DNA from: Spirochaetota bacterium
GTDB lineage: Bacteria; Spirochaetota; Spirochaetia; Treponematales; UBA12059
Assembly (NCBI GenBank): GCA_018262985.1
Contig: JADFDI010000002.1
Coordinates: forward strand, 330,314 to 394,313
DNA length: 64,000 nucleotides
Reading direction: 5' to 3'
Of this stretch, positions 37,937 to 55,740 are shown piece by piece (position 1 is the first letter of the stretch; every line of letters starts with the position of its first letter). The notes below the pieces were generated by a model that saw only the letters and a program-made list of their open reading frames with translations, was not told where the DNA came from and did no database searches. A program made the position numbers and the translations under genes.

Positions 37937-38004
37937 GCGTCGCTTCGCGCCGCTTTCGTAGAAGAATGGATTGTAGCGCCCGCGCTTCGCGCAGGCGACC
38001 TCAT
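37937..38004 (-). repeat. Double-hairpin element, copy E0 (68 bp)
   Basis: Minus-strand reading: starts ATGAGGTCGC, left hairpin of about 9 bp with a GAA loop, core CAATCCATTC, then right hairpin GCGGCGC-GAA-GCGACGC. The right half is almost identical to copies E4 and E5 at 55.4 kb. It sits where the 5' part of vapB should be. Confidence 0.85.
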
Positions 38005-54658: not shown

Positions 54659-54852
54659 CGCGCCGGTCGTACGGCGAGAACCCGAGCGCAAGCGAGGGCC
54701 TCCAGCCGAACGATCGCAACCTTGAACGTGAGTCGCGGAAGCGACGAACAATAATCGCGCCGGTCTTACGGTGAGAACCCGAGCGCAAGCGAGGGCCTCG
54801 AGCCGAACGATCGCAACCTTGAACGTGAGTCGCGGAAGCGACGAACAATAAT
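54659..54852 (+). repeat. Two 97-bp tandem repeats leading into tRNA-Gly
   Basis: Units 54659-54755 and 54756-54852 differ at only a few positions. Each unit begins CGCGCCGGTC(G/T)TACGG, which copies the 5' end of the tRNA-Gly gene that starts in phase right after the second unit. Each contains the hairpin GTCGC-GGAA-GCGAC and a GAGCG-CA-AGCGAGGGCC motif that recurs downstream. Confidence 0.9.
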
Positions 54853-54853
54853 C

Positions 54854-54925
54854 GCGCCGGTCGTATAACGGCTATTACCCCAGCCTTCCAAGCTGGAGAC
54901 GAGGGTTCGACTCCCTTTCGGCGCT
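54854..54925 (+). tRNA. trnG: tRNA-Gly (anticodon TCC)
   Basis: A 72-nt cloverleaf. Acceptor GCGCCGG/TCGGCGC has one G-T pair; anticodon stem CCAGC/GCTGG with loop CTTCCAA gives TCC; T arm GAGGG-TTCGACT-CCCTT. CCA is not encoded. The 3' end is repeated and inverted several times downstream. Confidence 0.95.
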
Positions 54926-55095
54926 TCAATCGTACGGCCCGCCATCCGGCGGGCCGTTTTTCATCGTAGCGCCGAAAGGGAGTCGAACCGAGGAGCCGTC
55001 CCGAGCGATGAGCGAGGGCCCTGCGCCGTGATGGCGCAGGGAGGCTCCGAGGCGGGCTGGAGGATCGAGGACAGGAAGTCCGAGATCCGGAAGCC
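54909..55095 (+). repeat. 187-bp module M1 (uninterrupted copy)
   Basis: It starts with the tRNA-Gly 3' tail (GACTCCCTTTCGGCGC), holds a terminator, an inverted copy of the tail (GCGCCGAAAGGGAGTCGAAC) and about 110 bp of GC-rich sequence ending CCGGAAGCC. It is the clean reference for the interrupted copy M2. Confidence 0.85.
54934..54961 (+). terminator. Terminator of tRNA-Gly (in M1)
   Basis: A perfect 10-bp stem ACGGCCCGCC/GGCGGGCCGT, ATCC loop and a T5 tail. Confidence 0.9.
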
Positions 55096-55167
55096 GACTC
55101 CCTTTCGGCGCTTCAATCGTACGGCCCGCCATCCGGCGGGCCGTTTTTCATCGTAGCGCCGAAAGGG

Positions 55168-55228
55168 ATGAGGTGGTCGCTTAGCGACCACCTAAACCCA
55201 TTCCCTGCCGAAAACGTCCGGAGGACGT
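55168..55228 (+). repeat. Double-hairpin element E1 (61 bp)
   Basis: Starts ATGAGGTGGTCGC; left hairpin AGGTGGTCGC-TTA-GCGACCACCT (10 bp), core AAACCCATTCC, right hairpin ACGTCC-GGA-GGACGT. It splits the inverted tRNA tail (AAAGGG^AGTCG) relative to M1. Confidence 0.85.
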
Positions 55229-55252
55229 AGTCGAACCGAGGAGCCGTCCCGA

Positions 55253-55318
55253 TCGACCGGTCGCGAAAGCGACCACGACAATCCATTCCACCAGAGAACG
55301 GTCATCGAAGATGATCGA
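55253..55318 (+). repeat. Double-hairpin element E2 (66 bp)
   Basis: Left hairpin GGTCGC-GAAA-GCGACC, core CAATCCATTCC beginning at base 27, right hairpin TCATC-GAA-GATGA. The insertion site relative to M1 is CCCGA^GCGATG. Confidence 0.85.
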
Positions 55319-55344
55319 GCGATGAGCGAGGGCCCTGCGCCGTG

Positions 55345-55542
55345 ATGAGGCCGCCCGCCGAAGGCGGGCACGTCAATCCATTCCTCTCCGAAAGCGCCGC
55401 GAAGCGACGCATGAGGCCGCCCGCCGAAGGCGGGCACGTCAATCCATTCCTCTCCGAAAGCGGCGCGAAGCGACGCATGAGGCCGCCCGCCGAAGGCAGG
55501 CACGTCAATCCATTCCTCTCCGAAAGCGGCGCGAAGCGACGC
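55345..55542 (+). repeat. Double-hairpin elements E3, E4, E5 (3 x 66 bp in tandem)
   Basis: Three nearly identical 66-bp units start at 55345, 55411 and 55477, each with ATGAGG, left hairpin GCCCGCC-GAA-GGCGGGC (E5 has one change), core CAATCCATTCC and right hairpin with a GAA loop. The triplet is inserted at CGTG^ATGGCG relative to M1. Confidence 0.9.
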
Positions 55543-55607
55543 ATGGCGCAGGGAGGCTCCGAGGCGGGCTGGAGGATCGAGGACAGGAAGTCCGAGATCC
55601 GGAGGTC

Positions 55608-55673
55608 GACGCCGTCGCCCGCCGAAGGCGGGCATGTCGATCCATTCCACTCGGCGACCGGCGCGGAGCGACG
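55608..55673 (+). repeat. Double-hairpin element E6 (66 bp)
   Basis: Left hairpin GCCCGCC-GAA-GGCGGGC, core GATCCATTCC, right hairpin around a GGA loop. It separates the end of M2 from the next copy of the tRNA tail. Confidence 0.8.
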
Positions 55674-55740
55674 TACTCCCTTTCGGCGCGACACACCGCG
55701 GCCCGCCATCAGGCGGGTTGTCTTTCATCGGGCCCCGGCG
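55674..55740 (+). repeat. Degenerate third module M3
   Basis: It begins ACTCCCTTTCGGCGC and has a decayed version of the terminator hairpin (GCCCGCC-ATCA-GGCGGG) followed by TTTC. The remaining bases to 55848 hold no feature I can name. Confidence 0.6.

Follow-up and report, generated by a model that had tools for sequence, protein, structure and literature searches.

The locus and its element copies

The window, i.e., the whole stretch of 64,000 nucleotides of a Spirochaetota bacterium that was analysed, carries an intact tRNA-Gly gene, an uninterrupted copy of a region that recurs further downstream and, within the recurrence, several short elements able to form hairpins. The first-pass annotation had recognized seven copies of this element, six at 55168-55673 and one at 37937-38004, and all of them are present at these positions. 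We set the boundaries of the units, named E0 to E6, from the comparison of empty and filled sites. The features are the following:

37937-38004, minus strand: E0, a single copy, in the target ...GGCGCCG/AGGACGC... (model match C15:368247-368317, 81 bits including 3 flank bases)
54854-54925, plus strand: tRNA-Gly (TCC) gene, intact; the target region repeats its 3' end and its terminator
54966-55117, plus strand: copy A, the uninterrupted paralog of the target region, where three of the four sites are exact joints without insertion
55168-55228, plus strand: E1, inserted between GCGCCGAAAGGG and AGTCGAACC, an antisense tRNA-Gly fragment
55252-55317, plus strand: E2, inserted between GGAGCCGTCCCG and AGCGATGAGCGA, with divergent arms
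55345-55410, plus strand: E3, unit 1 of three abutting head-to-tail
55345-55350, plus strand: 5' head of E3, ATGAGG, bases 2-6 being the 5' strand of helix P1
55353-55369, plus strand: left hairpin P2 of E3, GCCCGCC-GAA-GGCGGGC
55388-55392, plus strand: CCGAA of E3, the 3' strand of P1, with tandem G.A in the window's genus
55394-55410, plus strand: right hairpin P3 of E3, GCGCCGC-GAA-GCGACGC, with a GNA loop; the element's 3' end is the final base of this hairpin
55411-55476, plus strand: E4, tandem unit 2 of the array E3-E5
55477-55542, plus strand: E5, tandem unit 3 of the array E3-E5
55609-55674, plus strand: E6, inserted between GGAGGTCG and ACTCCC, with a fully Watson-Crick P1 (CGCCG/CGGCG), as in other genera

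The tandem 66-mers E3-E5 and the core common to the copies are both seen in a direct-repeat analysis of the window; being near-identical, these three units are not three independent observations. Their array is located in the loop of the palindrome CCTGCGCC-GTGAT-GGCGCAGG, between GTG and AT. E2 scores weakly in the covariance-model search (17.8 bits, E 0.32), yet in the empty copy the flanks of its site are joined exactly.

The 3' end of the tRNA-Gly gene with its terminator (ACTCCCTTTCGGCGC...) recurs at 55097 and, diverged, at 55675, and these repeated ends bound two units that each start with an inverted tRNA fragment. The repeats of 54854-55700 look like a tandem integration or duplication at the tRNA 3' end. 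Directly upstream of the gene, at 54670-54860, there are two near-identical repeats of about 95 bp, whose starts resemble the tRNA-Gly 5' end (GCGCCGGTC).

The copies are insertions

That the copies are insertions can be seen inside the window itself, since the stretch 55153-55690 has an uninterrupted paralog at 54966-55117. Exactly one occurrence was found for each of the joined targets GCGCCGAAAGGG+AGTCGAACCGAGG, GGAGCCGTCCCG+AGCGATGAGCGA and CCCTGCGCCGTG+ATGGCGCAGGGA, all in the first copy, at 54969, 54992, and 55019; in the second copy, they are split by E1, E2, and E3-E5, respectively. The E6 site, compared by sequence, reads GGAAGCCG followed by ACTCCC when empty, versus GGAGGTCG, E6, and ACTCCC when filled. 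Orthologous sites in three species are also reciprocally filled or empty: L080 (G000) is filled where L134 (G001) is empty, with the reverse at another site about 0.7 kb away, and L124, L142, and L182 present filled/empty differences at two sites. Finally, nested copies in L155 and L190 break the right stem of another element between GCGG and AGC, which fixes both ends.

Family size and distribution

The family had been described as dispersed, with a conserved structure, and a covariance-model search had been proposed with the expectation of dozens of hits with covarying stems. The search was run and gave this result, confirming a dispersed family that is larger than first reported. A search with one copy as DNA returned about 30 convincing places in the host genome, while a model of the two hairpins built from 25 copies (R1) found 45 places at an E-value of 8.9e-7 or better, well above what chance would give, and 47 copies at 0.01. 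The same model found 64 and 44 copies in two genomes of the same genus, and 1-12 copies in each of several other genera of the same family. Extended with the third helix P1 described below (R2) and run over 296 genomes of the phylum, the model matched 19 of them, all within the window's order and mostly in one genus of a family labelled f3; 17 candidates were scored per genome, and the per-genome copy counts are lower bounds. We take these hosts to be the Treponema group. They include G034 (4,059,867 bp in one contig), and no element was found in G032 (1.1 Mb in one contig). The genomes are draft MAGs, the E-values are rough, and the models were trained on part of the set.

In G000, many copies are found no further than 200-400 bases from the end of a contig (C8, C9, C16; L084, L132, L073), i.e., assemblies break at the elements, and copy counts are thus probably underestimates. 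In G034, several diverged copies spaced by about 147 bp each follow the same AAATTTCC...TTTT leader (L268, around C1:1596592-1596956), the element being embedded there in a longer tandem repeat. Recent activity is suggested by near-identical subfamilies that occupy separate sites in G001 and G002. A spread across phyla was considered from an exact 19-base pattern and rejected, the non-spirochaete matches being coincidences in coding sequences, without the structure.

The element folds through three helices

Both hairpins covary strongly, as the compensatory stem changes read in the first copies had announced. Across 124 distinct copies, pairing reaches 98% in the left helix and 84% in the right one, two-sided changes affect 10 of the 13 pairs, and compensatory cells number 153 versus 35 in shuffles, a signal that is lost when the partners are slid by 1-3 bases. 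A MAFFT alignment (A1) agrees with it (27 compensatory cells versus 6.8) and is the cleaner test, since the alignment of 124 copies was fitted to the model. Both hairpins are recovered when E0, E1, E2, E4, and E6 are folded as single-stranded DNA. Only for E1 does the fold exceed by far the stability of shuffled sequences (z of -5.7, versus -0.9 to -2.1 for the four others), so that the structural case rests on covariation and not on energy.

The two-hairpin layout of the first-pass annotation therefore stands, and what it had missed is a third helix, together with the empty sites of the window, the target between G and A, and the targeting of hairpin loops. This helix, P1, pairs bases 2-6 of the element with the five that immediately precede the right hairpin, and was revealed by alignments from other genera, where the pairs are TGCCG/CGGCA, TGTCG/CGACA, TTACG/CGTAA, TTCGG/CCGAA, TGTGG/CCACA, TGCGC/GCGCA, and TGCAT/ATGCA. 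Its covariation between genera is significant (24 cells versus 9.2; 0 of 500 shuffles for the score), and a perfect P1 of at least 5 bp is present in 10 of 28 copies from other genera versus 2.9 with heads exchanged. In the window's genus, P1 is TGAGG/CCGAA, i.e., T-A, tandem G.A, and GG/CC, and for this reason covariation tests the helix only through the other genera. A hammerhead-like reading of these bases (GATGAG...CGAAA) was ruled out because they vary with Watson-Crick replacement in other genera.

The loop of P3 is a GNA in 82 of the 98 loops called, and GNA triloops are unusually stable in DNA. As the 3' end of the element coincides with that of P3, P1 and P3 would set both ends side by side.

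Choice of the target

Among 109 single insertions in the window's genus, G precedes the insertion in 95% and A follows it in 93%; in other genera, each proportion is 82% (n=28). There is no target duplication beyond one A, whose assignment at the junction is ambiguous and thus leaves room for a 1-base duplication. Tracts of the CACGGAGG/CGCAGAG type received 63 of the 109 insertions. These tandem tracts, the commonest target (e.g., L080, L134), are themselves a dispersed repeat. Of 137 insertions, 15 have flanks that, once joined, pair around the junction into a stem of 7 bp or more, versus 1.0 expected with flanks randomly re-paired, hence an excess of insertions in hairpin loops of about 15 times over chance.

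A tRNA gene is among the targets. In G308 (L246:1465-1602), an elongator tRNA-Met belonging to a 14-gene tRNA cluster is broken by a 66-base copy, antisense to the tRNA and placed at the 3' end of the anticodon loop; the interrupted gene is unreported by ARAGORN. The adjacency to tRNA genes that had been anticipated for the copies is unsupported as a rule. A structured RNA, spreading as a retro-element or acting as an intervening sequence removed from RNA, would account for such a split anticodon loop, for the tRNA-like size, for the three covarying helices, and for precise insertion without duplication. We nevertheless judge it very improbable: the reverse transcriptase domain PF00078, which a group I/II intron or retro-element would need in its host, is absent in G000, G001, G002, G015, and G034; the loops are GNA triloops and not GNRA or UUCG; in both L246 and E1, the element lies antisense to the tRNA; and the Rfam 15 covariance models give no match for the element, only tRNA being reported.

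Integron attC sites are a further target. In G037 and G309, copies are found inside attC-like repeats, between GGCTAYG and AACCTTTG, with many empty attC in the same arrays (L308 and L298). These loci appear to be chromosomal integron cassette arrays, with identical element copies in the attC-like repeats over L308:6000-19100 (G037) and L298:4000-19700 (G309), and an integron integrase lies near the arrays at G037:C31:279513; what had been taken in G037 for a composite cassette between two identical elements is actually such an array. These copies, and the presence of an integron integrase above cut-off in seven genomes (G000, G001, G309, G037, G263, G223, and G139), could suggest that the elements are themselves integron-type sites mobilised by IntI, an enzyme acting on folded single-stranded attC. 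The distribution of the integrase largely refutes this, since seven element hosts (G015, G034, G319, G299, G308, G243, and G035) have none above cut-off and the element-free G185 and G210 have one; moreover, the element consensus is without the GTTRRRY core, and cleavage is between G and A, not between G and TT. We give this origin next to no credence.

Search for the mobiliser

None of the enzyme families tested (Y1 transposase, reverse transcriptase, and integron integrase) is linked to the element or tracks it. A linked HUH enzyme had been suggested from the outset. Hairpin ends, no target duplication, an oriented insertion 3' of a short motif, and nested insertions would indeed fit an origin from REP/REPIN or IS200/IS605 sequences, with a Y1 HUH transposase (RAYT/TnpA) moving the element. 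Y1_Tnp genes also occur in the window's genus, and the element lies within about 400 bp at 3 of its 12 Y1 loci. On the other hand, PF01797 gives no match in 9 of the 12 element-bearing Treponema-group genomes tested, all at least 94% complete, G319 with its roughly 20 copies among them. The Y1 genes of the genus are either of a GGGGACAG-flanked type (TIRYT-like, cf. PMC6006769, PMC3733652) or tyrosine-less; the elements near them are polymorphic and do not stand at both ends, and the G002 ortholog of the G001 locus is without element. Neither an insertion sequence with the element's ends (searched with the element model and end patterns) nor a RAYT gene flanked by element copies was found across the Y1 loci, and the element bears no GTAG or CGTC tag.

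A lagging-strand bias is expected for single-strand transposition of the IS200/IS605 type. The strand counts, deduced from 20-kb GC skew, which is weak and a noisy proxy, are 15:4 in G319 but 20:24 at 44 other sites. The unevenness of G319, suggestive by itself, is not repeated at these other sites, and this may speak against the single-strand proposal made below and likewise against a Y1 enzyme. Altogether, we consider mobilisation by a Y1 transposase unlikely. A Y1-like protein is found in single copy in all three same-genus genomes (L059, L210, L211), with the HUH motif DHVH kept and ERIDDNAV as its tyrosine motif. This subfamily B was examined as a domesticated RAYT and rejected, since it has no catalytic Tyr and its orthologs are not element-flanked.

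The failure of the tested families to track the element, together with the ubiquity of Xer-like recombinases, would fit an unidentified recombinase acting on double-stranded or cruciform DNA, or host repair or template switching without a dedicated enzyme. The single-base precision at both ends and the sequence-conserved linkers suggest instead a specific recognition, and we hold this explanation to be about as improbable as a Y1 transposase.

Proposed mechanism

As a whole, the observations are probably best explained by a non-autonomous mobile element that folds, most likely as single-stranded DNA, and is moved in trans. The element, of about 61-72 nt (about 67), would form P1 and P2, then P3. 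P1, made of the 5' head and of the segment upstream of the right hairpin, would enclose P2 and the unpaired linker ...ACNACAATCNNTTCC..., and, by gathering both ends, P1 and P3 would allow an enzyme acting in trans to cut and rejoin precisely. From the hairpin ends, the lack of duplication, the GNA triloops, and the preference for hairpin loops, we infer an action on single-stranded DNA; the trans-acting nuclease and the role of P1 are likewise proposed. Insertion is oriented and takes place between G and A, the ambiguous A being the sole duplication that could occur. The ATG with which the element begins restores the target at the left junction, and this accounts for the abutting head-to-tail arrays. 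Folding targets, i.e., palindrome loops, the tRNA anticodon arm, and integron attC, are favoured.

It is conceivable, although we put it forward tentatively, that mobile elements of a new, minimal class, made of about 67 nt of folded DNA, are widespread in the Treponema group. Such an element would depend on an enzyme or host pathway not yet described, by which a folded single strand is joined exactly between G and A, hairpin loops (tRNA anticodon arms included) being preferred. The spread of very small non-autonomous repeats in bacteria is poorly understood, REPs with their RAYTs being the main model. Here, an independent family offers precisely known ends and target, cleanly empty sites when close genomes are compared, and a defined three-helix fold, in hosts often without Y1 transposases. 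Another mobilising activity can thus be sought by direct tests, for which the genomic coordinates and the covariance model supply the substrates.

Comparison with known systems

The first-pass annotation knew of no named spirochaete repeat with this architecture, and none was found in the literature searched (subscription journals being outside its coverage). REPs are single hairpins of 20-40 bp with GTAG or CGTC tags, the CGTC ones being mostly head-to-head dimers, reported from Spirochaetes without a linked transposase (PMC3733652). Like REPs, the element is short, dispersed, and hairpin-forming, with subfamilies differing in their stems, and, like the CGTC ones, it has no linked transposase (PMC3733652). 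Unlike them, it has two non-equivalent hairpins in a fixed order plus P1, about 67 nt, a head joining ATG to P1, and head-to-tail arrays; it is neither a single 20-40 bp palindrome nor two inverted copies. No unpaired GTAG/CGTC (TGTC/CCTC) tag stands at the hairpin foot, where the window's genus has the head ATGAGG, which varies in other genera because it pairs in P1.

REPINs, made of two inverted REPs, are non-autonomous and form hairpins, and their proposed movement is in trans, through a single-stranded DNA form (PMC3116915, PMC6006769). The element resembles them in these respects, but its hairpins are unrelated and directional, without RAYT association, so that the REPIN concept first invoked was not borne out as a membership. 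With the ends of IS200/IS605 and their miniature derivatives, it shares a hairpin near each end, no TSD, and a fixed orientation 3' of a short motif; it differs by the two-base target, the variable stem sequences, the lack of a cognate IS with its ends, and the many hosts without Y1. Classical MITE features are absent, the ends not being inverted repeats and no TSD existing beyond the ambiguous A.

Insertion sequences targeting REP palindromes (PMC1525189) and IS621/IS110 (PMC11208160) encode their enzymes. Like them, the element targets hairpins or palindromes, apparently in intergenic DNA; unlike them, any site with G followed by A serves it, without other common target sequence. Integron attC, also a target, is likewise a folded single-strand site of 60-70 nt, yet the element consensus has no GTTRRRY/RYYYAAC core and its distribution does not follow IntI. 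In conclusion, the element works like a non-autonomous element of the REP/IS200 type yet has neither a GTAG/CGTC tag nor a RAYT linkage, and a RAYT-like mode of action may be carried out by another enzyme.
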